Assembly: GCF_024436055.1 (NCBI RefSeq)
Contig: NZ_JANFNH010000002.1
Span: 186,001 to 250,000, forward strand
DNA length: 64,000 nt
Direction of reading: 5' to 3'
Origin: Streptantibioticus rubrisoli
GTDB taxonomy: Bacteria; Actinomycetota; Actinomycetes; Streptomycetales; Streptomycetaceae
Below, one piece after another: positions 4,851 through 39,861 of this stretch. The notes under the pieces were generated by a model, which saw only the letters and a program-made list of their open reading frames with translations, was not told the origin of the DNA and did no database searches. Positions within the stretch are counted from its first letter, which is position 1. Each line of letters begins with the position of its first letter. The translations under genes were made by a program, and so were the position numbers.

Positions 4851-5021
4851 GGCACCTCTTCCACGGTCGACGTTCGGCCACGGCGGTCGGGACCGCCGGT
4901 CTACCGCAGCCAAAGATGCCAGGACAAACCTGTAAGGATCACCACAAACATGGACTTACCGATCAACTATGCAAATACGACTGGGGGCTGACCGTGCGGG
5001 GCGGACGCGGGCTCGGCGAAT

Positions 5022-5036
5022 TGGTTTTCATTTTCA
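5022..5036 (+). promoter_or_regulatory. candidate Zur box upstream of rpmB-rpsN
   Basis: TGGTTTTCATTTTCA lies 50 bases before the rpmB start. Its right half (TCATTTTCA) and the leading TG match the actinobacterial Zur operator pattern TGaaAaTcATTTTCA; the left half is degenerate. It is an AT-rich island in GC-rich DNA. The zinc-free nature of the two downstream ribosomal proteins supports control by zinc limitation. Assignment is by pattern from memory. Confidence 0.65.
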
Positions 5037-5086
5037 TGAAGCGCTACGGTGGGGAGCCGGAAGACCTCCACCAGCGAAAGGGAGCC

Positions 5087-5323
5087 ATGTCCGCGCACTG
5101 CCAACTCACCGGCCGTAAGCCGGGGTTCGGCCACAACATCTCGCACTCGCACCGGCGCACCAAGCGGCGCTTCGACCCCAACGTGCAGCACAAGCGGTAC
5201 TGGCTGCCGAGCGAGCGGCGGTACGTGCGGCTGACGCTGAGCGCCAAGGGGATCAAGACCGTGGACGCCATCGGGATCGAGGCCGCGGTGGCCCGGATCC
5301 GGGCCACCGGAGGGAGGGTCTGA
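5087..5323 (+). CDS. rpmB: 50S ribosomal protein L28, zinc-independent paralogue
   Basis: Ribosomal large-subunit protein of 78 aa, starting [23 protein letters not shown] at 5087 is preceded by AAAGGGAG at 5078-5085. Only one Cys (residue 5) is present; the paired CxxC zinc ribbons of the ordinary actinobacterial L28 are missing. This is therefore the C-minus form that replaces the zinc protein when zinc is scarce. It overlaps rpsN by one base (TGATG), so the two are translationally coupled. The candidate Zur box just upstream fits derepression under zinc starvation. The rpmG and rpmE partners found in some Streptomyces Zur operons are not present here. Confidence 0.95.
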
Positions 5324-5628
5324 TGGCGAAGAAGAGCAAGATCGCCAAGAACGAGAAGCGACGGGAGATCGTCGCGCGGTACGCGCGGCGGCGGGCCGAG
5401 CTGAAGCAGGTCATCGCCAGTGCGCGGTCGACGGACGAGGAACGGCTCGCCGCCCAGCGGGAGTTGCGCCGCCAGCCACGCGACGCGAGCGCCACGCGGG
5501 TGAGGAACCGGGACTCGGTCGACGGCCGCCCGCGCGGCCACTTCCGCGCGTTCGGGCTGTCCCGCATCCGGTTGCGGGAGATGGCCCACGCCGGAGAGCT
5601 GCCGGGGGTGACCAAGAGCAGTTGGTAG
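5323..5628 (+). CDS. rpsN: 30S ribosomal protein S14, zinc-independent long form
   Basis: Small-subunit ribosomal protein of 101 aa, starting [14 protein letters not shown] and ending in the conserved region [20 protein letters not shown]...[17 protein letters not shown]. It is the long S14 form without the CxxC pairs of the 61-aa zinc-binding S14. ATG overlaps the rpmB stop by one base, and AGGGAGGG at 5311-5318 is the ribosome binding site. It forms a two-gene operon with rpmB behind the candidate Zur operator and is expected to be made when zinc is limiting. Confidence 0.95.
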
Positions 5629-5819
5629 CCGCGCGGGTCGCGGGAGCGGGGCTGGGTTGCGGCTGGTCCGGCACCGCGGGGCCACGCCGCTGTCGTCGCA
5701 CTCCGGTGCGCCGGGCCGAGGGCTCAACCCCCAACCCGGTACCGTGCACGGCCGGTTGACGGTCGGCATGCCGTGCGGCTCGCGCGGGGGCGGCAAGCGG
5801 CCCTCGCGGGCGCTGGTGG

Positions 5820-6623
5820 TCAGTGCTCCTGGGCCGTCGGGCGCATCATGATCTCGTTGACCGCCGCGTGCGGGGGCTGAGTGATCATGAACGTGATGGC
5901 ACGGGCGATGTCCTCGGCGCGCAGCCAGGCGTTCTGCGGCAGGTCGCGAGCGGCGGCGCGCCCGGCGCCGGTCGCCATCTCCGTGATGGTCATGCCCGGC
6001 TCGACCAGCCCCACCCGGACCCCTCTTGCGGCCACCTCCTGGCGCATCGCCTCGCTGAACGCGCCCACCGCGTGCTTCGTCGCCGAATAGACGGGGTTGT
6101 TCCGCCGCACCACCCTGCCGCCGACCGAGCTGACGTTCACGAGGTCGGCGACCCCCCGCGGCCCTTCCGCCGCCGTGCGCAGCAGGTGCGGCAACGCGGT
6201 CTGCGACATGTGCAGCACGGCGTTGAGGTTGAGGTCGACCATCCGCTTCCAGTCGGCGGGGTCGCTGTGCTCCACGGTGCCCATCGCGACGTATCCGGCG
6301 TTGTTCACCAGCACGTCCAACCGCGCGAAGCGGCCAGCGGCGTCATCGACGGCCTGACGCGCCTGCACCGGGTCCGCCAGGTCGGCGGTGAGTACGGTGC
6401 ACGAACCACCCTGTCCGCGGATCACCGCGGCCAGCTCCTCCAGCCGTTCGGTGCGCCGGGCGACCACCGCCACCTCGGCGCCCAGCCGGGCGAGCGCCAA
6501 GGCGGTGGCTGCCCCGATGCCACTGGACGCACCGGTCACCAGTGCCGCACACCCCGACAACGGCGCCACCGCGCCTGCGGCGGCGCCCCCCGTCGCTCCG
6601 GCGTTCGGATCCCTCACGCTCAT
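5820..6623 (-). CDS. short-chain dehydrogenase/reductase
   Basis: Classical SDR oxidoreductase of 267 aa. Visible features are the NAD(P)-binding TGASSGIG at residues 30-37, NNAG at 107-110, Ser165/166 and catalytic YSATK (Tyr179, Lys183). An Arg pair just after the first beta strand (ARRTER) favours NADP(H). ATG at 6623 is preceded by GAGGGG. A 20-residue Ala/Gly-rich leader comes before the fold. Substrate unknown; it stands alone, not in an operon with its neighbours. Confidence 0.88.
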   Translation of the reverse strand: MSVRDPNAGATGGAAAGAVAPLSGCAALVTGASSGIGAATALALARLGAEVAVVARRTERLEELAAVIRGQGGSCTVLTADLADPVQARQAVDDAAGRFARLDVLVNNAGYVAMGTVEHSDPADWKRMVDLNLNAVLHMSQTALPHLLRTAAEGPRGVADLVNVSSVGGRVVRRNNPVYSATKHAVGAFSEAMRQEVAARGVRVGLVEPGMTITEMATGAGRAAARDLPQNAWLRAEDIARAITFMITQPPHAAVNEIMMRPTAQEH

Positions 6624-6764
6624 GATCGCCCCTCACGGACGGTTCCGCCCCACGCGGCCGACGGTGGCGCCGTCACCACCCATGATCGGCGAAGACGCCG
6701 CCGACGGCTGGCCGTACGCGGCGGACGGGGCGACCCGCAGGCGCGGGCGAGGCATGCGGACCCG

Positions 6765-7469: not shown

Positions 7470-9092
7470 TCAGGCCCGGCGCAGCACGGATTCCAGTACC
7501 TTGATCAGGGTCGTCACCGGGTCGGCAGCGGTCGATGTCGCGCGCCAGGCGACGAAGCCGTCCGGACGCACCAGCACGGCGCCGTCCGGTGAAGTGCCGT
7601 GCGCCTGGGCCCAGTCGGCGTCCGGCTCCGGCACCAGGTCGAGGCCGGGGCCGACCCGGTGGCACTCCAGCGGCAGCCCCAGCCGTTCGCCGACCCGCCG
7701 CCCCGCCTCGTACCACCTGCCGCCGTGCGCGCCGCTGAGCAGCACCAGCGACCGCTCGTACAGGTCGAGCGAGGACAGCCGCACCCCGTCCCGGCGCAGC
7801 CACAGGTGCGGTGCCCGGCTGCCCGGGGCGCCGGTCAGCTCCAACTCGTCGGGTACCACAGCCGAGTCGGGGTCGGTGCCGACGACGGCGCCCCGGTGGT
7901 AGCGGTAGCCCAGGGCGGTGGCCAGCACGCCGCGCTGCGGGCCGGTGGTGGGTGCGGCGGCGTAGCCGGGGTGCCGGTGCTCGGAGGAGCGGGCCGAGGC
8001 GCGTTCGCTCGTCGCCCGCGCCACCGGCTGCCGCTCCGCGCCGTACGTCTCCAGCAGTGCGGGCCCGGCCCAGCCGCCCAGCACCGCGGCGAGCTTCCAG
8101 GCCAGGTTGTGCGCGTCCTGGATGCCGGTGTTCGAGCCGAACGCGCCGGTGGGCGACATCTCGTGCGCGGCGTCACCGGCCAGGAACACCCGCCCGGTGC
8201 CGTAGCTGCTCGCCACCCGCTCCGCGGCGTGCCAGGGCGCCTTGCCGGTGATCTCCACCTCCATGTCCGGTACGCCGGTGGCCTTGCGGATGTGCTCGGC
8301 GCACCGCTCGTCGGTGAAGCTGGCCAACTCCTCGCCGTGCTCGGGGTGCCACGGGATGTGGAACACCCACTGCTCCCGGTTGTCCACCGGCAGCAGGGTG
8401 CCGTCGGCCTCGGGGTTGCGCAGATAGCAGGCGATGAAGCGGCGGTCGCCCACCGCGTCCGCCAGCCGTTTGGCCCGGAACGTCACGCTGACGTTGTGGA
8501 ACAGGTCGCCGCGCCCCATCTGGGCGATGCCGAGCCGCTCGCGGACCGGGCTACGTGGGCCGTCCGCCGCGATCAGGTACTGGGCGCGCACCGTGCGGCG
8601 CTCGTCGGTGCCCCTGCGGCCGATCACGGCGGTCACCCCGTCCGCGTCCTGTTCGAAGGAGCGCAACTCGGTGCCGTAGCGCAGATCGCCGCCCAACTCG
8701 CGGGCGCAGTCCAGCAGTACCGGTTCAAGGTCGTTCTGGCTGCACAGGCACCAGCTGGTGGGGCTGAAACGGGACAGCCGACCGCCCGGGTCCACCTCCT
8801 TGAACAGCCACTCCTGCTCGGTGCCGGTCAGTGTCTCGGCCTGCAGGATGCCGTGGTTGTCCGCCAGCACCGACGCGGCCACCTGGATGCGCGGCTCGAT
8901 TCCCGCGGTGCGGAACAGTTCCATCGTGCGCACGTTGTTGCCGCGCCCGCGGGGGTGCCGGGAGGTTCCCGGATGCTTCTCCACAAGCGTGTGCGCGATG
9001 CCCAGGCGCCCCAGGAACAGCGAGGCGGACAGACCCACCAGGGAACCGCCCGCGATCAGTACCGGCACCCGCTCGTCGATCTTCGCGTTCAT
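7470..9092 (-). CDS. whiE-ORFVIII: spore-pigment FAD-dependent hydroxylase (WhiE ORFVIII type)
   Basis: Flavoprotein aromatic monooxygenase of 540 aa in the PheA/TfdB class, expected to hydroxylate the polyketide made by the adjacent cluster. Visible motifs: the Rossmann dinucleotide site IAGGSLVGLSASLFLGRLG near residue 13, the central YLIAADGPRSPVRERLG and the FAD-ribityl motif VFLAGDAAHEMSPTGAFG. ATG at 9092 follows CTGGAG. It is divergent from the pigment operon, as whiE ORFVIII is in S. coelicolor, where this late tailoring gene has its own sporulation-dependent promoter. Confidence 0.9.
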   Translation of the reverse strand: MNAKIDERVPVLIAGGSLVGLSASLFLGRLGIAHTLVEKHPGTSRHPRGRGNNVRTMELFRTAGIEPRIQVAASVLADNHGILQAETLTGTEQEWLFKEVDPGGRLSRFSPTSWCLCSQNDLEPVLLDCARELGGDLRYGTELRSFEQDADGVTAVIGRRGTDERRTVRAQYLIAADGPRSPVRERLGIAQMGRGDLFHNVSVTFRAKRLADAVGDRRFIACYLRNPEADGTLLPVDNREQWVFHIPWHPEHGEELASFTDERCAEHIRKATGVPDMEVEITGKAPWHAAERVASSYGTGRVFLAGDAAHEMSPTGAFGSNTGIQDAHNLAWKLAAVLGGWAGPALLETYGAERQPVARATSERASARSSEHRHPGYAAAPTTGPQRGVLATALGYRYHRGAVVGTDPDSAVVPDELELTGAPGSRAPHLWLRRDGVRLSSLDLYERSLVLLSGAHGGRWYEAGRRVGERLGLPLECHRVGPGLDLVPEPDADWAQAHGTSPDGAVLVRPDGFVAWRATSTAADPVTTLIKVLESVLRRA

Positions 9093-9467
9093 CCATGGCT
9101 CCAGCCGTTGCGGGGAGTCGCAGGTGCGGACTCCTGGGATGCGGGAGCGGTTCTGCCGACCACGGCGGCCCGCACCATCGATCCTCGCCCGGGTACCGGT
9201 GTTCCGCCCGACGGGTCACCCGAACGGCCTACACGCGTTGCGGCATCCGTGGTAGCCCATCACCATCGATTCACGGGCCTGCTTCCGGAATTGCGGATGG
9301 ATTTTCCGGAAATGGGGTCCAGAACGGCGAAATGTTTGTTCGCCGATGTCGCGGAGAGAAAAAGCGCGGCCTGTCGGAAAAGCCTATCCGGCCGCCGCCC
9401 GCCCGGCATGCCAGTCCGGGCCAGGGCCCGTTGACGCCGAATCCCCTGCCCGCGAAGGAGCGGTGAC
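9093..9467. other. 375-bp divergent promoter region of the spore-pigment cluster
   Basis: No gene seen. This gap separates the divergent hydroxylase gene from the pigment operon and should hold both promoters. It is less GC-rich than its surroundings between about 9280 and 9365. The clearest structure is a pair of identical palindromes at 9283-9311 (separate entry). No sigma-factor boxes could be assigned with confidence. Confidence 0.7.
9283..9311. promoter_or_regulatory. twin TTCCGGAA palindromes, 21 bp apart
   Basis: TTCCGGAA occurs at 9283-9290 and again at 9304-9311, start to start exactly 21 bp (two helical turns). The second copy extends to TTTCCGGAAA. Two identical perfect palindromes on the same DNA face inside a divergent promoter suggest a dimeric regulator bound twice. 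The regulator is unknown. Confidence 0.45.
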
Positions 9468-10595
9468 ATGACGGTGCTGTCCACAGCCGAAGCGCCCCGA
9501 TCCAAAGCCGAATCACTTGCGTTCAGCCCCAGCGAGTCCAAGCTGCGGGTCATACTCGTGTTGCACGTCAAGGACGGCGCCGAAAAGCGCTTCATGGAAG
9601 TCTATTCCGCCCTGCGCGAGCAGGTGGCGGAGGTTCCGGGACACCTCAGCGACCAGCTGTGCCAGTCCATCCAGGACCCCACCCAGTGGATCATCACCAG
9701 TGAATGGGAGGGCGCGGAGCCCTATTTCGCCTGGGTGAACAGCGCCGAGCACGTGCGCATGGTGGAGCCGATGCACGAGTGCGTGCACAACACCCAGTCG
9801 CTGCGCTACGGCGTGGTCCGCGAGACCAAGCCCGCTTCCGCCGCCCCCGTCCCCCGGGCGCAGCGCCAGAGCGACCCGCCGTCCGACGGCGTGGTGCGAC
9901 ACGCCGTCACGTTCACCGTCAAGCCCGGCAGCGAGCAGGCCGCCGCGAAGATCCTCGCCGAGTACGCCTCGCCGTCCCCCGAGGTCGACGCGGTCACCAG
10001 GCTGCACCGCACCTCGCTGTTCATGCGGGGCAACCGGGTGGTACGGGCGATCGAGGTGATCGGCGACCTGGGCGCCGCGCTGCGCCATGTCGCCAGCCAA
10101 CCGGGCGTCCGGGCCGCGGAGGAGGCGCTGAACCCGCATCTGGAAGAGGCTCGCGACCTGGACGACGCCAAGGCCGCGCGGGAGTTCTTCATGCGCGCCG
10201 CACTGCCCGCGGTGCACCGGCTGACCGTCGGTGACGTGGACGGCCCCGGTGTGCGGCGACGTGCCCTGAGCTACCCGGCCCGGCGCGGCTGCGGGTCCGC
10301 GGTGGCCCTGTTCCTGTCCCGCCAGGACCAACTTGCCGCCGCCCGGCACCCGTCGGCGCTGGTGAGCAGCACCATCTACCAGCGCGGCGACATCGTGGTG
10401 CGCGTGGTGGACCTGCGCGGCGAACCGGACCCCAGCGTCGTCCTCGGCGTCGAAGGACACCGCGCCCCCGCCGTGCTCAGCCGACTCGTGGACCTCGGCC
10501 CCAACGGTGATCTGAGCGACAGCGCGGGGATCCAACGCTTCGTCGCCGACTGCGCCATGGACCTGGTCACCGACCGCCGGGCCCAACAGACCTGA
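9468..10595 (+). CDS. whiE-ORFI: spore-pigment biosynthesis protein, SchA/CurD-like (WhiE ORFI type)
   Basis: First gene of the pigment operon, 375 aa. Residues about 25-100 form an antibiotic-biosynthesis-monooxygenase (ferredoxin-like) domain; the rest matches the SchA/CurD-type region typical of spore-pigment clusters. ATG at 9468 has AAGGAG upstream. The exact chemical step is not established for this family; a role in oxygenation or folding of the polyketide is inferred. It is followed after 57 bases by the cupin gene and precedes the minimal PKS, in the same order as S. coelicolor whiE. Confidence 0.85.
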   Translation: MTVLSTAEAPRSKAESLAFSPSESKLRVILVLHVKDGAEKRFMEVYSALREQVAEVPGHLSDQLCQSIQDPTQWIITSEWEGAEPYFAWVNSAEHVRMVEPMHECVHNTQSLRYGVVRETKPASAAPVPRAQRQSDPPSDGVVRHAVTFTVKPGSEQAAAKILAEYASPSPEVDAVTRLHRTSLFMRGNRVVRAIEVIGDLGAALRHVASQPGVRAAEEALNPHLEEARDLDDAKAAREFFMRAALPAVHRLTVGDVDGPGVRRRALSYPARRGCGSAVALFLSRQDQLAAARHPSALVSSTIYQRGDIVVRVVDLRGEPDPSVVLGVEGHRAPAVLSRLVDLGPNGDLSDSAGIQRFVADCAMDLVTDRRAQQT

Positions 10596-10652
10596 CACCG
10601 GCCGGAAGTTGACGACCCAGGCACCGCCCACCCGACGCCTTCGGAGAACACC

Positions 10653-11066
10653 ATGCCCACACAGACCGCACGCATCGTGCACATCGACCAGACCCAGCCC
10701 AACCGGCGACGCGGTGGCGACCTGCGCACCCTGCTCACCCCCACCACGGTCGGGGCGACGAGCGGATTCATGGGCATGGCCATCATCCGGCCCGGCGAGC
10801 GCATCGGGGAGCACTACCACCCGTACTCCGAGGAGTTCGTCTACGTCGTCCAGGGCCAGGTCGAGGTCGACCTGGACGGCGAGCCGCATTCGCTGGGACC
10901 CGACCACGCGTTGCTGATCCCGAAGGACGTGCGGCACCGGTTCCGCAACGTGGGCAACGTCGACGTACGGATGGTCTTCCACCTCGGACCGCTCGCCCCG
11001 CGGCCGGAGTTGGGGCACGTGGACACCGAGGAAGGCCCGCCCGAACCAGCGAAGGCGGTGTCCTGA
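10653..11066 (+). CDS. whiE-ORFII: cupin protein of spore-pigment cluster (WhiE ORFII type)
   Basis: Single-domain cupin of 137 aa. Cupin motif 1 is visible as [21 protein letters not shown], with metal-ligand residues His, His and Glu, and motif 2 as [12 protein letters not shown]. Probably a cyclase or oxygenase-like tailoring protein; the family member in whiE has no settled biochemical role. Its stop overlaps the KSalpha start by one base (TGATG), so expression is coupled to the minimal PKS. Confidence 0.88.
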
Positions 11067-12331
11067 TGCGACGTGTGGCCGTCACCGGCGTCGGCGTGGT
11101 CGCGCCCGGCGGAGTGGGGGTGCCCGCGTTCTGGGACATGCTCACCGCCGGACGCACCGCGACCCGGGGGATCACGCTGTTCAACCCCGAGGGGTTCCGC
11201 TCGCGGATCGCCGCCGAGTGCGACTTCGACCCGTACCGGTGCGGTCTGAACGCCGACGAGTTGGCGCGCGCCGACCGGTACGTGCAGTTCGCGCTGGTGG
11301 CCGCCGACGAGGCGGTGCGCGACTCCGGGCTCGACCTGTCGGCCGAGGAGCCGTGGCGGATCGGGGTGTCGCTCGGCTCCGCCGTCGGCGGCACCACCCG
11401 GCTGGAGGCCGACTACGTGCGAGTCAGCGGTGCCGGTGAGCGCTGGGACGTGGACCACCGGCAGGCCCGGCCGCATCTGCACCGGGCCTTCTCACCCAGT
11501 GCGCTGTCCTCCGAGGTGGCGGAGCGCACCGGCGCGCACGGTCCCGTGCGGACCGTGTCCACCGGCTGCACCTCCGGCCTGGACGCCGTCGGATACGCCT
11601 TCCACGCCATCGAGGAGGGCGACGCCGACATCATCATCGCCGGCGCCTCGGACTCGCCTATCTCGCCCATCACGGTGGCGTGCTTCGACGCGATCCGGGC
11701 CACGTCCCCCAACAACGACGACCCGCAGCACGCCTCTCGGCCGTTCGACGCCCACCGGGACGGCTTCGTGATGGGCGAGGGCGGTGCGGTGCTGGTACTG
11801 GAGGAGGCGGAGCACGCCCGGCGGCGCGGGGCGCGCGTCTACTGCGAGATCGGCGGGTTCGCCACCTTCGGCAACGCCTACCACATGACCGGGCTGACCC
11901 GGGAGGGACTGGAGATGTCCCGGGCGATCGACCACGCCCTCGACCACGCGCGCGTCGACCCCCGCGACGTGGACTACGTCAACGCCCATGGCTCCGGCAC
12001 CAAACAGAACGACCGGCACGAGACGGCGGCGGTGAAGCGGTCGCTGGGCGAGCACGCCTACTCGACGCCGATGAGCTCGATCAAGTCCATGGTGGGGCAT
12101 TCGCTCGGCGCCATCGGCGCGATAGAGCTGGCCGCGTGCGCCCTCGCCCTGGCCGGCGGTGTCATACCGCCGACCGCCAACTACGAGACCCCCGACCCCG
12201 AGTGCGACCTGGACTACGTGCCGCGCACCGCGCGCACGGCGCCGCTGCGCACCGTCCTGTCGGTCGGCAGCGGATTCGGCGGATTCCAGTCCGCTGTCGT
12301 CCTCAACCGCAGGGAGAGGCGGACACGATGA
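11066..12331 (+). CDS. whiE-ORFIII: ketosynthase alpha subunit, spore-pigment type II PKS
   Basis: Condenses malonyl-ACP units as the catalytic half of the KSalpha/KSbeta heterodimer; 421 aa. Active-site Cys168 lies in [11 protein letters not shown], and the two catalytic His motifs are NAHGSGT and [11 protein letters not shown] overlaps the cupin stop, and its own stop overlaps the KSbeta start (ATGA), the usual arrangement for equimolar synthesis. Position between the SchA/cupin genes and the CLF identifies it as the spore-pigment ketosynthase rather than an antibiotic one. Confidence 0.96.
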
Positions 12332-13569
12332 GTCAGCGCAACACCCGCCGCGCGGTGGTGACCGGAATCGGGGTGATCGCCCCCAACGGGGTGGGCAAAC
12401 GGGCGTTCTGGAAGGCCACCAAGGAAGGCGTCAGCGTCCTTGACACCCTCTCTCACGACGGCTGCGGCGACTACCCGCTGCGGATCGCCGGGGAGGTGAG
12501 GGGCTTCGACCCCGCGGACGCGATCGAGGGCCAGTACCTGGTGCAGACCGACCGGTTCACGCACTTCGCGATGGCCGCGGCCGACCTGGCGAAGGACGAC
12601 GCCCGGCTCGACACCACCGGTCTTTCGCCCTACGCGGTGGGCGTCGCCACCGCCTCCGGTTCCGGCGGCGGCGAGTTCGGCCAAAGGGAACTGCAGCAAC
12701 TGTGGGGCCGGGGGCCGAAGTTCGTCGGCCCATACCAGTCCATCGCCTGGTTCTACGCGGCGAGCACCGGCCAGATCTCGATCCGCGGCGACCACAAGGG
12801 GCCGTGCGCGGTGCTGGCCAACGACGAGGCCGGGGGGCTTGACGCGATCGCGCACGCCTGCCGGAACGTCAGACGCGGCGCCGACGTGATGCTCGTCGGA
12901 TCCGCCGAGGCACCACTGGCGCCGTACTCGATCGTCTGCCAGCTCGGCTACCCGGAACTCAGCCGTGCGGAGGTGCCCGAGCGTGCCTATCTGCCGTTCA
13001 CCGCTGACGCCTGCGGGTTCGTGCCCGCCGAGGGCGGGGCGATGCTGGTGGTCGAGGACGCCGAGGCGGCCCGGCGGCACGGTGCCACGGCCAGGGCGGA
13101 GGTCCGCGGCCACGCCGCCACGTTCACCGGCGCGTCCGCCTGGGAGCGCTCCCGGGAGGGGCTGGCGCACGCCATCCGCAGCGCCCTCGACCAGGCCCGG
13201 TGCGCCCCGGAGGAGGTCGACGTGGTGTTCGCCGACGCGCTCGGGGTGCCCGCCGCGGACCGTGCCGAGGCGCTGGCGATCAACGAGGCGCTGGGCGGGC
13301 ACGCCGCCGACGTGCCGGTGACCGCGCCGAAGACCGGCATCGGCAGGGCGTACTGCGGGGGCCCGGTACTGGACGTGGCCACCGCGGTACTCGCCATGGA
13401 GCACGGTGTGGTGCCGCCCACCCCCAACGTGGCCGACGTCATCCATGACATCGACCTCGTCACCGGTCTGGCCCGCCCCGCCGAGGTGCGCACCGCACTG
13501 GTGCTCAGCCGCGGACTGATGGGGTGCAACGCCGCGCTCGTCCTGCGACGCGGCGCCGACCAGCCGTGA
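12328..13569 (+). CDS. whiE-ORFIV: ketosynthase beta / chain-length factor, spore-pigment type II PKS
   Basis: Chain-length factor partner of KSalpha, 413 aa, coupled by an ATGA overlap. The ketosynthase fold is intact but the active-site Cys is absent: the aligned motif reads [11 protein letters not shown], with Glu167 where KSalpha has Cys. Most chain-length factors carry Gln at this site, so Glu is worth noting. The last His-containing loop is replaced by [10 protein letters not shown]. It sets polyketide chain length and, in studied systems, helps priming decarboxylation. Confidence 0.95.
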
Positions 13570-13609
13570 TGGCGGCAGTGCCGCCAGCGGAACCGGAAGG
13601 AGAGTAGTG

Positions 13610-14352
<743 letters not shown>

Positions 14353-14364
14353 CCACCGCCTCCT

Positions 14365-14405
14365 GGCACCTGCCCCGGCCACGGACACCGGCCGGGGCAG
14401 GTGCC
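14365..14405. terminator. perfect 16-bp inverted repeat inside the pigment operon
   Basis: Left arm 14365-14380 and right arm 14390-14405 are exact complements (GGCACCTGCCCCGGCC) with a 9-base loop. It begins 12 bases after the aromatase stop and ends 45 bases before the cyclase start. No T tract follows. It could be a partial terminator or an RNA-stabilising hairpin that lowers cyclase expression. Confidence 0.75.
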
Positions 14406-14450
14406 GGGACCACCGCGCACCCCCAAGCGACGAGCGAGAGGAAACCGCCC

Positions 14451-14777
14451 ATGCACCGCGCCCTGATCGTGGCCCGGATGAAGCCCGGCTCCGCCCCCGG
14501 CATCGCCGAGGTCTTCGCCGACTCCGACCGCGGCGAACTGCCGCATCTGATAGGGGTCAGCGGCCGCAGCCTGTTCCAGTTCGGTGATGTGTACCTGCAT
14601 CTGATCGAGGCCGACGAACCGCCCGGCCCCCGGGTGGCCCGTCTGACCAACCACCCGGAGTTCCGCAGCGTCAGCGAACGGCTCACCGCCTACGTCCAGG
14701 CCTACGATCCGGCGACCTGGCGGGAGCCCAAGGACGCCATGGCCCACGAGTTCTACCGCTGGGACCGGGACGGCTGA
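14451..14777 (+). CDS. whiE-ORFVII: TcmI-type polyketide cyclase (WhiE ORFVII type)
   Basis: Small ferredoxin-like cyclase of 108 aa, beginning MHRALIVARMKPGSAPGIAE and carrying the family segment RLTNHPEFRSVSERLTAYVQAYDPATWREPKDA. Expected to close later rings of the pigment polyketide. ATG at 14451 follows GAGAGGAAA. It is the last gene of the operon in S. coelicolor whiE. Here it is separated from the aromatase gene by a strong hairpin and ends 2 bases before the stop of a convergent methyltransferase gene. Confidence 0.9.
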   Translation: MHRALIVARMKPGSAPGIAEVFADSDRGELPHLIGVSGRSLFQFGDVYLHLIEADEPPGPRVARLTNHPEFRSVSERLTAYVQAYDPATWREPKDAMAHEFYRWDRDG

Positions 14778-14779
14778 CC

Positions 14780-15859
14780 TCACACCGGAACGTTCGCCTC
14801 GAACGCGTGCAGATACGCGTTGATCGGCTGGATGTCCCGCAGTTCGAGTCCGGCCGCCGTCATCGCGTTGACCAGGCTCTCCTTGGAGTGCTTGGCGCCG
14901 CCCACGTTCAGCAGCAAGAGCAGGTCCATGGCGGTGGTGAACCGCATCGAGGGGCTGTCGTCCACCAGGTTCTCCACGACGATCACCCGCGCGCCCGGAC
15001 GCGCCACGGAGATCACGTTCCGCAGCGTCAGCCGGGTGCTCTCGTCGTCCCACTCCAGGATGTTCTTGATGATGTAGAGGTCCGCCCGCACCGGCACCTC
15101 CTGCCGGCAGTCGCCGGGCAGGAGTTGGGCGCGGTCGGCCAGCGCGCCGCCCGGGCGCAGCCGGGGATCGGCGTTGGCCACCACCTTCGGCAGGTCGAGC
15201 AGGGTGCCGCGCAGGTTCGGGTCCTTCTCCAGCAGGCTGGCGATCACATGGCCCTGCCCGCCGCCGATGTCCACCACGCTCGACACTCCGGCGAGGTCGA
15301 CATAGGCGGCGAAGTCCTCGGCGGACTGCCTGCTGGACTGCGTCATGGCCTTGTCGAACACCTCGGCCGACGCGCCCGCGCCGTCGTGCAGGTAGTCGAA
15401 GAACTCCTTGCCGAAGACATCGGGGAAGACCTTCCGCCCGGACCGCACGGCCTCGTCAAGACGCGGCCACACCTGCCAGGTCCACGGCTCGGTGCACCAC
15501 AGCGAGATGTAGCGCAGGCTGTTCGGGCTGTCCTCGCGCAGCAGCCGGGACATCTCGGTGTGCGTCCACCGGCCGTCGCCGGTCTCGGTGAAGATGTCGT
15601 AGCAGGACAGGGTGCGCAGCAGTCGGCGCAGCGGCCGCACCTCGGTCCTCAGCGCCGCCGCCAACTCCTCGGTGGTGGCCGGGGTGTCCTGCAGGGCGTC
15701 CGCCAGGCGCAGTTGGGCCGCCGCGCGGACGGCCGCGGCGCAGGCGGCACCGAACACCAGCTCCCGAAGCCGCATTCCCGCGTGCGCTGAGGTGGTTTGT
15801 GCGGTGGATCGTCCGGTGGGTTGTGCTGTGGACTGTGCGGTGGATTGTGCGGTGGTCAT
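14780..15859 (-). CDS. SAM-dependent O-methyltransferase (plant-type, dimerising)
   Basis: Methyltransferase of 359 aa: an N-terminal winged-helix dimerisation domain (about residues 30-110), then a catalytic domain with SAM motif I VVDIGGGQGHVIASLL and a downstream VRADLYIIKNILEWDD motif. ATG at 15859 follows GGAAGG. The family includes tetracenomycin- and carminomycin-type polyketide O-methyltransferases. It is convergent with the pigment cyclase with only 2 bases between stops, so it probably methylates the pigment, although S. coelicolor whiE has no such gene to my knowledge. The first 25 residues are a low-complexity STAQ repeat, probably disordered. Confidence 0.87.
   Translation of the reverse strand: MTTAQSTAQSTAQPTGRSTAQTTSAHAGMRLRELVFGAACAAAVRAAAQLRLADALQDTPATTEELAAALRTEVRPLRRLLRTLSCYDIFTETGDGRWTHTEMSRLLREDSPNSLRYISLWCTEPWTWQVWPRLDEAVRSGRKVFPDVFGKEFFDYLHDGAGASAEVFDKAMTQSSRQSAEDFAAYVDLAGVSSVVDIGGGQGHVIASLLEKDPNLRGTLLDLPKVVANADPRLRPGGALADRAQLLPGDCRQEVPVRADLYIIKNILEWDDESTRLTLRNVISVARPGARVIVVENLVDDSPSMRFTTAMDLLLLLNVGGAKHSKESLVNAMTAAGLELRDIQPINAYLHAFEANVPV
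15791..15850 (-). repeat. five tandem 12-bp repeats in the methyltransferase 5' coding region
   Basis: Five imperfect units of the form GGTGGATTGTGC (+ strand) run from 15791 to 15850. Read on the coding strand they give the repeating tetrapeptide S/P-T-A-Q. The unit length is a multiple of three, so copy-number change would not shift frame. A 5' coding microsatellite like this could vary between strains. Confidence 0.85.
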
Positions 15860-15890
15860 GAAGCCCGCCTTCCGGGTTGTGGAGCCGCCG

Positions 15891-16949
15891 TCAGCACGAA
15901 CCGGAGGGCTCGGAGGTCCGGCAGTAGTTCCTGACGAAGGTGTTGTCCGTGCCGACGTCCCGGTTGGCCAGATCCGCCGGAGCGTTGTCGCGCAGCGTGT
16001 TGTCCCGGACGGTGATACGGGAGTTGGGCGCTCCGAACCTGCTGCGGAACAGCACGATCCCACCGGACATGGGCGTTCGGCCGCGGTTGCCGCGCACCAG
16101 GTTGTGCGCCACCAGCGTCTGCTCCGCGCCGGTGACCAGGATGCCCACGCCCTGTGTCTGCGCCATGTGGGCGCTCTTGGAACAGAACTTGTTGTTCAGC
16201 TCCACCCGGTTGTGGCGGATGGACAGGGCTCCGGCGCGCGGTACGTTCTCGTCGCCCACCACGAACACTCCGCCGCAGTTGCCGGTGATGGTGTTGTGCT
16301 TGACCACCAGGTTCCTGGCCCGCCGGATCACCACGCCGAAGTGGTTGCCCTGCACGAGGTTGCCGGAGATCACCGCGCCCCGTGTGTCGATGGCCGGGCC
16401 TTCCCGGCCGATGACGTTCGCCAGCAGGATGCCCGACTGGCCGTTGTCCCTGAGCACGTTGTTCTTGAACTCGCCCCGGGTGGACAGCTGTTGGCTGATG
16501 CCCTGCTGCCCGTTGTCGCGCACGAGCACATCGCGCACGCTCATCCGGTCCGTCCAGGAGGACGAGATGCCGTCATTCGGGAAACCGGAGACGGTCAGCG
16601 ATCTGAGCCGTACGCCGGTGAGCGGCCGGTTGGCGGTGCCGGTGACGCAGATCCCGTGACCGGCCCGCGCGCAGGCGGTGCCGGATCTGGTGCGGCCGGG
16701 GGCGAGCACTGTGCCCGAGCCCATGCCGCGGATGGTCAGGCCGGGGACGGTGACCTCGATGCTCTCCCGGTAGGTGCCGGGGAGCAGCAGCAGGGTCTCG
16801 CCGGGGGTGGCGCGGTCGACGGCCTCCTGGATCGACTCACCCGGGCGGACGATGTGCCGATCCGCCGCGTGGGCGGGTGGCGTCGCCGCGAAGCCGACGA
16901 CGAGGACGGTGGCGAGCGGCGCGAGGTAGCGGGAGCTGCGCTTTGGCAT
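15891..16949 (-). CDS. secreted right-handed beta-helix protein
   Basis: Exported protein of 352 aa. The signal peptide is MPKRSSRYLAP...PPAHA, cleaved near residue 28. It then carries the opening typical of parallel beta-helix proteins (IQEAVDRATPGETLLLLPGTYRESIEV) and many N-rich turns such as NNVLRDNGQSGILL and HNTITGNCGGVFV. It resembles NosD/pectate-lyase-like folds. No catalytic residues can be assigned by eye. ATG at 16949 is chosen over an upstream in-frame start at 17024 because the signal peptide begins there and AGGAAGG lies upstream. Substrate unknown; possibly a surface or spore-coat polysaccharide protein. Confidence 0.8.
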   Translation of the reverse strand: MPKRSSRYLAPLATVLVVGFAATPPAHAADRHIVRPGESIQEAVDRATPGETLLLLPGTYRESIEVTVPGLTIRGMGSGTVLAPGRTRSGTACARAGHGICVTGTANRPLTGVRLRSLTVSGFPNDGISSSWTDRMSVRDVLVRDNGQQGISQQLSTRGEFKNNVLRDNGQSGILLANVIGREGPAIDTRGAVISGNLVQGNHFGVVIRRARNLVVKHNTITGNCGGVFVVGDENVPRAGALSIRHNRVELNNKFCSKSAHMAQTQGVGILVTGAEQTLVAHNLVRGNRGRTPMSGGIVLFRSRFGAPNSRITVRDNTLRDNAPADLANRDVGTDNTFVRNYCRTSEPSGSC

Positions 16950-35768: not shown

Positions 35769-36113
35769 TTAGCTCGCGGACTGGTACCGCTCGATGACAT
35801 CGCCCGGAATCCGGCCGCGCGGACTGACCTCGATGCCCTGCTCCTTGGCCCAGGCGCGCACCTTCACCGGGTCGGGGCCGGTGGCCGCGGAACCCCCGCT
35901 CGCCGACCGCTTGGCCGGGCCGCGGCGTGAACTTCCCGTTTTCCTGCCGTGCCGGATGAAAGGCGCAAGGGCCTCAAGGAGTTTGTCGTAGTTGTCGGCG
36001 CCGAGGTCGATCTCGTAGCCGATGCCGTCGACGCTGAAGGTGTGGGTGGCAATGTCGTCACCCTGTTCACCGCTGATGTCGTCGGTGAAAAGGGTGATCA
36101 CGCGCTGAACCAT
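35769..36113 (-). CDS. lsr2: nucleoid-associated xenogeneic silencer Lsr2
   Basis: Histone-like protein of 114 aa that bridges AT-rich DNA and silences foreign or specialised-metabolism genes. The N-terminal dimerisation domain begins MVQRVITLFTDDISGE and continues FSVDGIGYEIDLGADNYDKL. A basic linker (RHGRKTGSSRRGPAKRS) leads to the C-terminal DNA-binding region VRAWAKEQGIEVSPRGRIPG, with the RGR AT-hook-like element. ATG at 36113. Streptomyces usually has two lsr2 genes; which one this is cannot be decided here. Confidence 0.95.
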   Translation of the reverse strand: MVQRVITLFTDDISGEQGDDIATHTFSVDGIGYEIDLGADNYDKLLEALAPFIRHGRKTGSSRRGPAKRSASGGSAATGPDPVKVRAWAKEQGIEVSPRGRIPGDVIERYQSAS

Positions 36114-37214: not shown

Positions 37215-37865
37215 TCACTCCACGCCGACTCGCTCGGCGCTGTTGTGCCGCTGTGGCGCGCTGGTGCCGCGTGGGTCGATACGAGGCAGGACATAAGGCG
37301 CGCCAAGTCCGGGGAGGATGTGCTCCCACAAATCAGTCACGCGTTGCGGGAGATCCGCCCGGCCGTTGAGCGTCTCGGACAGCAGCTGAATACCGGTGAA
37401 GCAGCCGATGATGAGTTCGGCCGTTCTCCGCGGATTGATGTGCTTGAGGACGATTCCATCGCTCTGCGCCTTTTCCAGTAAAGAACAGGCGATGTCCGTC
37501 CACTCGCGGTAGGGCTGGGTGGCCGGTGCGGTGAAGGAGCCCTCGATGACCAGCCGAACACCGGCCTGCATCATCGGGTTGTTCTGAAGCTCGCGCGCCA
37601 TGAAATGTGAGGCGTCGATCGCCGCCTGGAGGGGGCAATCGACGGCGTGCGGCGGCAGCAGACGGGTCTGTTCCTCGATCACCGCTTTGGCCAGGTCCTC
37701 CTTCGAGGCGAAGTGGAAGTACAGTGCGCCCCTGGTGGTGCCGGATTCCTTCAGGACGTCTTCCACGGCGGAGGCTGCGTAGCCGTTCTTGGCGAACACC
37801 ACGGCGGCGGCGTTGAGGATGCGTCGGCGAGTTTCCCTGGCTCGCTCTTGCTTCGGTTCTCGCAC
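37215..37865 (-). CDS. scbR: TetR-family gamma-butyrolactone receptor (ArpA/ScbR type)
   Basis: Autoregulator receptor of 216 aa. The N-terminal helix-turn-helix (VEDVLKESGTTRGALYFHFASKEDLAKAVI) is typical of the ArpA branch of TetR regulators, as are the ligand-domain segments QPYREWTDIACSLLEKAQSD and LLSETLNGRADLPQRVTDLW. Such proteins repress target promoters until a gamma-butyrolactone binds. It is divergent from the AfsA-type synthase, with a 26-bp ARE-like palindrome between them, so it probably controls both genes. Exact orthology to ScbR, BarA or others is not settled. Confidence 0.88.
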   Translation of the reverse strand: MREPKQERARETRRRILNAAAVVFAKNGYAASAVEDVLKESGTTRGALYFHFASKEDLAKAVIEEQTRLLPPHAVDCPLQAAIDASHFMARELQNNPMMQAGVRLVIEGSFTAPATQPYREWTDIACSLLEKAQSDGIVLKHINPRRTAELIIGCFTGIQLLSETLNGRADLPQRVTDLWEHILPGLGAPYVLPRIDPRGTSAPQRHNSAERVGVE

Positions 37866-37933
37866 TTTGAGTTCTCCAGGCGCGCCCGCACGCCATCAGG
37901 GTTCGGGTGAGCGTTTCGTCATCTTCGAACGCT

Positions 37934-37959
37934 AAACCAACTGACTTTCCGGTAGGTAT
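37934..37959. promoter_or_regulatory. candidate autoregulatory element (ARE) for the butyrolactone receptor
   Basis: AAACCAACTG-ACTTTC-CGGTAGGTAT: the 10-bp arms are partly inverted (7 of 10 positions pair as AxACCxACxG), with a 6-bp centre, 26 bp in total. This is the size and pattern of AREs bound by ArpA-family receptors. It lies midway between the divergent receptor and synthase genes. Confidence 0.75.
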
Positions 37960-38006
37960 CCTAGCAGCGCAAAAAAGGCAGCCCCCGACGAGGCGGAGTG
38001 GTGAAC

Positions 38007-38927
38007 ATGTCCATACCCGGGCTGATGGATCCATGGCAGCGCGAGTTCACCGGTACCGCTCCTCGGGAGTATGTGCACCGCCGAGCCATTGCCGAGGTCT
38101 TCCTTACCGACGCCTGGCGATGCGTCGGTAAAGACGCCTTCACGTTGATCACGCAGTGGCCGCGTGCTCACCTGCTCTACGCCCCCCTCCATGGCCGCTG
38201 GTACGACCCCATGGTTGCCGTGGAAACCATCCGGCAGGCCGGTTTGCTGGTCGCCCATGCCGAATACGGCGTCCCGCTAGGATATCAATTCATAGTGGAA
38301 TCAATAGAGTTGACGACCCACAAGGCGGTCCCGGTCGGCCCCCTCCCCGCCGAACTCGATCTGCGGGTCGACGCCGACGACTTCAGATGGCGAGGTCAGC
38401 GCCTGTCCCACATGCGGTGCACGTTCCACTTCTGGCAGGGGTCCGAGAACGTCATGACCGGCAGCGGGACCTTCACCTGCGTCCCTCCCCGTCTGTACCG
38501 GCGGCTGCGCGGCTCCAGGGCCGCAGCCGTCCTGACGCCCCCGCAGCCGCCCGTGCCCGCCGCGGAAACCACCGGCGGACGCCACGAGCAGAACATCCTC
38601 CTGGCACCCGGCCGCGGACCGCGCTCATGGCAGCTGAGGGTCGATCCACTCCACCCCGTGCTCTTCGACCACCCCGTCGACCACATGCCGGGCATGGCCT
38701 TGCTGGAGGCGGCACGACAGGCCGCCGAAGCCGTCACGGACCCCGGCCTTCTGCCCACCCGGATACGGATCGCCTTCGAACGCTACGTAGAGTTCGGTTC
38801 CCCTTGCTGGATCGAGGCCGATCCGGAGCCATCAGGCGACGACGGAACCACCGAGGTGAACGTGATCGCCTGCCAGAGCGGCACTCCAGCATGTAGGGCC
38901 ACCATCGTCATGAAACCCGGCGCATGA
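38007..38927 (+). CDS. afsA: AfsA-family gamma-butyrolactone synthase
   Basis: Makes the butyrolactone skeleton by joining a beta-ketoacyl chain to dihydroxyacetone phosphate; 306 aa. Two AfsA hot-dog repeats are visible: about 15-150 (REYVHRRAIAEVFLTDAW, PLHGRWYDPMVAVETIRQAG) and about 195-300 (DPLHPVLFDHPVDHMPGMALL, FERYVEFGSPCWIEAD). ATG at 38007 is preferred over GTGs at 37998 and 38001 because GGAG (37995-37998) is 8 bases away. First gene of a two-gene operon with the reductase; probably repressed through the ARE until signal accumulates. Confidence 0.92.
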   Translation: MSIPGLMDPWQREFTGTAPREYVHRRAIAEVFLTDAWRCVGKDAFTLITQWPRAHLLYAPLHGRWYDPMVAVETIRQAGLLVAHAEYGVPLGYQFIVESIELTTHKAVPVGPLPAELDLRVDADDFRWRGQRLSHMRCTFHFWQGSENVMTGSGTFTCVPPRLYRRLRGSRAAAVLTPPQPPVPAAETTGGRHEQNILLAPGRGPRSWQLRVDPLHPVLFDHPVDHMPGMALLEAARQAAEAVTDPGLLPTRIRIAFERYVEFGSPCWIEADPEPSGDDGTTEVNVIACQSGTPACRATIVMKPGA

Positions 38928-38943
38928 GGGACGGGGGAAGACA

Positions 38944-39861
38944 GTGCGCGTACTCATCACCGGTGCTTCCGGCTTCATCGGACGGCGGGTCGTCGGGGCC
39001 GTGGCGGCGGAAAGCGTCCATCTGCGTCTGCTGCGGCACAACAGCGGTCTCCAGGACACTCCGCGCGATGCGCAGCTCGCGCGCGCGGACCTGACCAACC
39101 CGGCATCGCTGCGCGGACTGTGCGACGGGGTGGACGTCCTGGTGCACTGCGCCTCACACATAGGCGATGCCCCCGAACTGTGCGAAGCCGTCAACACCGA
39201 GGGCACCAAGGCGCTGGTGGCGGAGGCGCACGGCGCCGGGGTACGGCGCATCGTGTACCTCAGCACCGCGGCCGTCTACGGCGAAGGGCCCTTCACCAAC
39301 GTCAGGGAAGGGCAGTTCGCCCCCCGACCCGTATCCGTCACCAGCAGCACGCGGCTGGCCGCCGAGAAGGTGGTACTGGCGCACGGCGGAACCGTCCTGC
39401 GGCCGCACCTGGTGTACGGGGCGGGGGATCGGTGGGTGATCCCGGCGACCGTCTGGACGGCCTCCACCGTCAAGGCCACCGTCGACGGTGGCCGCGCCCT
39501 GCTGTCACTGATCGACGTGGACGACCTGGCCCGCGCCATCGCGGCCTGCGCCCTGAGCCCGAGGCCCCGCCCGGGCGTCTACCACGCCGCTCATCCGCAG
39601 CCGGTTCCGCTGAAGGAACTGCTCGATGTCGTCACGTCGCGACTCGGCCTTCCCCGAATCGAGGAAGACCTTCCCTATGACCTGGCCCTGGAGCGCTTCA
39701 CGGCGCACGGTGGCCGTAAGCGCCATCTCGACATGATGGCGCGGGACCATTGGTTCGACAGCACAAGGCTCTGGTCCGACTTCGACTGCGTCCCCGGCGA
39801 GGGGTTCCGCGCACAGTTCGCCCGCCATGCGGACTGGTACCGCGACCACCTGAGGCTCTGA
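38944..39861 (+). CDS. NAD-dependent epimerase/dehydratase-family reductase of the butyrolactone locus
   Basis: Extended-SDR protein of 305 aa. NAD(P)-binding ITGASGFIGRRVVGAV at residue 5; STAAVYGEG is the usual position of the catalytic Tyr motif, but here the usual YxxxK is replaced by TSSTRLAAEK, so the catalytic Tyr is not obvious. GTG at 38944 follows GGGGGAAG, 17 bases after the AfsA-type gene, so the two form an operon. It probably reduces the 6-keto group or another intermediate of the signal; the exact step is inferred from context. Confidence 0.8.
   Translation: MRVLITGASGFIGRRVVGAVAAESVHLRLLRHNSGLQDTPRDAQLARADLTNPASLRGLCDGVDVLVHCASHIGDAPELCEAVNTEGTKALVAEAHGAGVRRIVYLSTAAVYGEGPFTNVREGQFAPRPVSVTSSTRLAAEKVVLAHGGTVLRPHLVYGAGDRWVIPATVWTASTVKATVDGGRALLSLIDVDDLARAIAACALSPRPRPGVYHAAHPQPVPLKELLDVVTSRLGLPRIEEDLPYDLALERFTAHGGRKRHLDMMARDHWFDSTRLWSDFDCVPGEGFRAQFARHADWYRDHLRL

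Follow-up and report, generated by a model that had tools for sequence, protein, structure and literature searches.

The window analyzed here, a 64,000-nucleotide stretch that corresponds to bases 186001-250000 of one contig (C27) in a 7.26 Mb genome from a genus of the Streptomyces family, carries three adjacent genes at 37215-39861, flanked by genes for a PP2C phosphatase and a metallophosphoesterase. The first two encode a TetR-type receptor and an AfsA-type synthase that passed the curated NCBIfam cut-offs by wide margins, and the third encodes an extended SDR (see the table). Together, the family scores and the operator model described below bear out the view, put forward in an earlier note on this DNA, of a compact receptor/synthase/SDR unit whose divergent genes flank an ARE-type operator. 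All three frames are intact and are 91/83/80% identical to those of a sister genome (G013). The SDR gene is probably co-transcribed with the synthase gene, since only 16 bases separate its start from the synthase stop. Receptor-AfsA-SDR neighborhoods recur across the family and are also found in Rhodococcus; the locus is an ordinary butyrolactone cassette, one member of a widespread family.

Table. Features of the butyrolactone locus and of its surroundings in the window.
Feature	Position in window	Strand	Support or remark
ScbR-family (TetR) butyrolactone receptor	37215..37865	-	NCBIfam ScbR_bind_reg, 211 bits (cut-off 150)
AfsA/ScbA-type butyrolactone synthase	38007..38927	+	NCBIfam ScbA_BarX, 327 bits (cut-off 200)
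GblE/JadW2-family extended SDR	38944..39861	+	Pfam Epimerase, 5e-26
ARE-type operator AAACCAACTGA-CTTT-CCGGTAGGTAT	37934..37959	none	Held-out operator model, conservation
Operator half-sites	37934-37944 and 37949-37959		
Putative -10 element TATCCT, synthase promoter	37957..37962	+	By-eye alignment with other operators
Lsr2	35769-36113	-	
whiE/sch/cur-type type II PKS (spore pigment) cluster	7470-16063		21 kb from the trio

The synthase contains two AfsA hotdog stretches (Pfam AfsA). Its listed open reading frame starts at a GTG codon at 37998; the orthologous gene retains the ATG at 38007 and not that GTG, and from the sequences ATG 38007 appears the likelier start. We compared the protein with near-invariant positions defined from 55 other AfsA homologs. 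The earlier note had named a lack of residues essential in AfsA/ScbA as grounds for rejecting its reading; near-invariant residues were instead retained in both repeats (E76, R79, and Q80; H219, D228, H229, E237, R240, and Q241), with deviations at two such positions only (G194 and I200).

The best match of the receptor in the PDB was AvaR1 (3.6e-44), and the other near solved relatives were butyrolactone receptors and CprB. In the alignment, Q66 and W122 of the receptor map to Q64 and W127 of AvaR1, a Gln and a Trp through which ligand binding is proposed to be coupled to release from DNA (PMC7347384). Genuine receptors have been distinguished by a conserved ligand-site Trp and a neutral-to-acidic pI (PMC7480387), and on both counts (W122; pI 7.02, and 6.25 for the orthologue) the window protein belongs with the ScbR/ArpA family. 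One residue counts against reading the locus as an ordinary cassette: V106 occupies the position of AvaR1 T108, where Ser, Thr, or Ala is usual. Among 33 aligned sequences, Val was seen here in the window receptor and its orthologue only.

The operator had been described as a 26-bp ARE-like palindrome. We found it symmetric at 7 of 13 pairs, and 3,893 of the ~64,000 window positions are equally or more symmetric; symmetry was therefore at chance level in the window and was discarded as operator evidence. We instead trained a 26-wide symmetric model on 15 intergenic regions between receptor and synthase genes, a set from which the window and its orthologue were held out. Scanned over the entire 64 kb window, this model gave its top score, 13.6 bits, at exactly 37934. 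Since the training sites scored higher (16.6-31.8 bits), and since the half-sites are spaced differently, we regard the operator as a divergent member. A 22-wide model placed the operator no higher than sixth, and its top hit was a palindrome at 38224 within the synthase gene. The operator is identical at 25 of 26 bases in the orthologous locus of the sister genome (L054). The element is thus supported as an operator, by its likeness to the model and its conservation, and is weak as a palindrome. Aligned by eye, it occupies the same place as the other operators, over a putative -10 element of the synthase promoter that reads TATCCT at the window locus versus TATCTT at many other loci; a consensus scan found no sigma-70-like promoter there. 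Two further repeats were observed nearby. The synthase-internal ARE-like palindrome, AAACCATCCGGCAGGCCGGTTT at 38224-38245, is identical in the orthologue but may be a coincidence, given that some of its bases belong to codons for the conserved ETIRQAG motif. An inverted repeat, AGCGTT-12-AACGCT at 37910-37933, adjoins the operator, and its arms are retained in the orthologue, where the spacer is 14 bases.

With regard to the targets of the receptor, the earlier note held that they lie elsewhere and proposed a search of the genome for further ARE sites with the palindrome as seed. A degenerate operator pattern, allowed up to three mismatches across all 7.26 Mb, matched nothing besides the operator itself, and a shorter, looser form gave 124 genome matches compared with 148 for a reversed control, that is, no excess. 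With neither a second copy nor an excess over the control, only autoregulation has sequence support, and the claim of distant targets does not gain any; weaker or differently built distant sites are compatible with this result and not excluded by it. The statement that no biosynthetic cluster adjoins the trio in the window holds for its immediate surroundings. The window does, however, contain a whiE-type cluster that comprises an FAD hydroxylase, a SchA/CurD protein, a cupin, KS-alpha, CLF, an ACP, a cyclase, and an O-methyltransferase. No operator match linked the trio to this cluster.

The SDR lacks the YxxxK motif. We set the register by pairwise and profile alignments to the solved relatives 6jkg and 3wj7, and found T133-S-S-T-R137 in place of the motif, with T133 aligned to the Tyr and R137 to the Lys; the Rossmann GxxGFxG is kept. 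The missing Tyr suspected earlier is thus confirmed, and the Lys is absent as well. We then aligned 40 SDRs: 39 from Streptomycetaceae, the window protein included, and one from a different family within the class. Both Tyr and Lys were absent from all 40. Ser134, Arg137, and Glu141 were invariant throughout, and the Tyr position varied (T in 35, A in 3, V in 1, and L in 1). An xSxxR sequence instead of YxxxK is therefore a family feature, found in the present analysis, and the window SDR fits it. A related SDR on the Rhodococcus plasmid pDF01 (L124) reads L-S-A-S-R and is likewise without YxxxK. AfsA genes lay within the fetched flanks of 37 of the 40 SDRs, a set that was itself partly fetched through AfsA. 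Outside the family, identity to the window SDR was low (34% for L096). A predicted structure of the SDR, built with only two sequences in the alignment, had a mean pLDDT of 41.6, too low for the model to be usable.

The closest parallel to the trio is the gblR-gblA-gblE set of Rhodococcus jostii RHA1, which has the same three gene families and likewise no gblD (PMC5735094). The arrangement differs: the Rhodococcus gblA and gblE are separated by the receptor gene, whereas in the window gblE directly follows gblA. Without the ketoreductase gblD, the R. jostii genes make 6-dehydro-SCB2, in which the 6-keto group is retained (PMC5735094), and this argues that a trio like that of the window makes an ordinary 6-keto butyrolactone. 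The earlier suggestion that the missing Tyr may signify an unusual signal is therefore unsupported, given that the trait is family-wide and that the corresponding genes of R. jostii yield an ordinary product. The JadW1/JadW2/JadR system of S. venezuelae (PMC5735094), likened here by description, also pairs an AfsA-type synthase with a GblE-family SDR; unlike the window trio, it is linked to jadomycin and has JadW3. JadW2 is reported to be essential for butyrolactones in S. venezuelae, and its step has been recorded as unknown (PMC5735094). ScbR-ScbA-ScbC of S. coelicolor shares the receptor and synthase families and has an enzyme gene directly 3' of the synthase gene, with the addition of the ketoreductase ScbB and the cpk cluster. 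That enzyme, ScbC/SCO6267, encoded downstream of scbA (PMC7501462), is likened to the window SDR by description; it has been called a butenolide phosphate reductase (PMC8062868), and the epimerase-like SDR Sfb5 is 50% identical to it (PMC7480387).

Taken as a whole, the evidence makes it very probable that the trio is an ordinary autoregulated signaling cassette of the gblR-gblA-gblE type. We infer that the synthase would join a beta-ketoacyl chain, carried as a thioester, to a glycerol-derived C3 unit such as DHAP, and that ring closure of the product would give a butenolide. The SDR would come in afterwards, most likely to reduce the C=C of the ring, and a 6-keto signal of the A-factor or 6-dehydro-SCB type would finally result from the action of a non-specific phosphatase. 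The receptor, bound to the shared operator over the synthase promoter, would repress synthesis, and binding of the lactone would free it from the operator, giving positive feedback. Given the R. jostii product, ring reduction is the most parsimonious function of the SDR; the assignment is not secure, because GblC (BprA) and GblE are listed as different enzymes (PMC5735094). Accepting the whole proposal, namely, that GblE/JadW2 proteins form a distinct extended-SDR class with an invariant Ser-Arg for Tyr-Lys and are also the dedicated ring C=C reductases that make butyrolactones, is at present a tentative step, and we lean somewhat against it.

The loss of both Tyr and Lys could also mean that the SDR has no catalytic activity or serves a regulatory role, with the signal finished by enzymes elsewhere in the genome. 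AfsA genes without a GblE-type SDR nearby do occur in other genomes, suggesting that the SDR is not always needed beside the synthase; at such loci, we observed by eye NmrA-like frames downstream of AfsA. However, the invariance of S134, R137, and E141 across 40 sequences and the intact Rossmann glycines indicate strong constraint, and JadW2 was reported to be essential for production (PMC5735094). We consider a dead SDR unlikely. A similarly low probability attaches to the idea that the cassette makes an SRB-like butenolide, with the SDR reducing or dehydrating something other than the ring. AfsA homologs can indeed make SRB-type butenolides (PMC12301235), and in a profile search the SDR fitted dehydratase/epimerase relatives as well as it did reductases; yet the trio neither contains nor directly adjoins a P450 gene, and the 6-keto butyrolactone produced by the R. 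jostii genes is saturated (PMC5735094).

The surroundings of the trio vary between genomes. In G026, 4.1 kb of other DNA takes its place. In G013, about 10.9 kb of extra genes lie between the trio and the metallophosphoesterase (L094 3500-14400, G013:C50), and by eye some of these frames resemble a TauD-type dioxygenase and glycosyltransferases. Although this variable spot, and the fact that only two of the genus's three genomes have the trio, might suggest a recently acquired, decaying, or non-functional locus, we think this very improbable, since none of the three frames is broken, all are conserved in G013, and the functional residues and operator are kept. The gene for Lsr2, whose closeness to the trio had been remarked upon, is indeed present, but Lsr2 and the left neighbors are collinear in G013, so its proximity reflects conserved core-genome background rather than a special link.

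The ordinary cassette of the window is not the only butyrolactone unit of this genome. A second, paralogous trio lies on contig C71 (L051) in the same order, receptor (-), synthase (+), and SDR (+), and its SDR is 52% identical to that of the window. It has a different operator (AAACCAAACCGGCTTGTCTGTA) and one additional ScbR-like regulator, and its receptor carries Ala instead of the conserved Trp. This trio is present in all three genomes of the genus, with an identical operator in each. The Ala is found at the ligand-site Trp position of the C71 receptor (about 9551-10312); Pro, Ser, or Ala also occurs at this position in several other receptors linked to AfsA, suggesting a different class of ligand pocket. 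C38 and C16 carry two further ScbR-family genes that scored above the cut-off; neither gene is near an AfsA gene. Among the genes checked around the C71, C38, and C16 loci, none resembled antibiotic clusters. On C38 (L052), an acyl-CoA dehydrogenase-family gene (4907-6628) lies about 3 kb from the orphan ScbR-family receptor gene (9525-10238), a pair of possible interest because acyl-CoA oxidases make avenolide-type signals.

For this organism, two cassettes with different operators and different receptor pockets offer a useful setting for asking whether their channels are mutually insulated. The broader interest rests with the Tyr-less SDR family rather than with the window locus itself: an AfsA-linked SDR gene recurs in many Streptomycetaceae and in Rhodococcus, and the textbook catalytic pair is replaced throughout. 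The compact two-enzyme cassette would be a clean system for assigning the GblE/JadW2 step and, if GblE/JadW2 proteins are indeed ring reductases, they would fill a step of the butyrolactone pathway that has been recorded as unknown.
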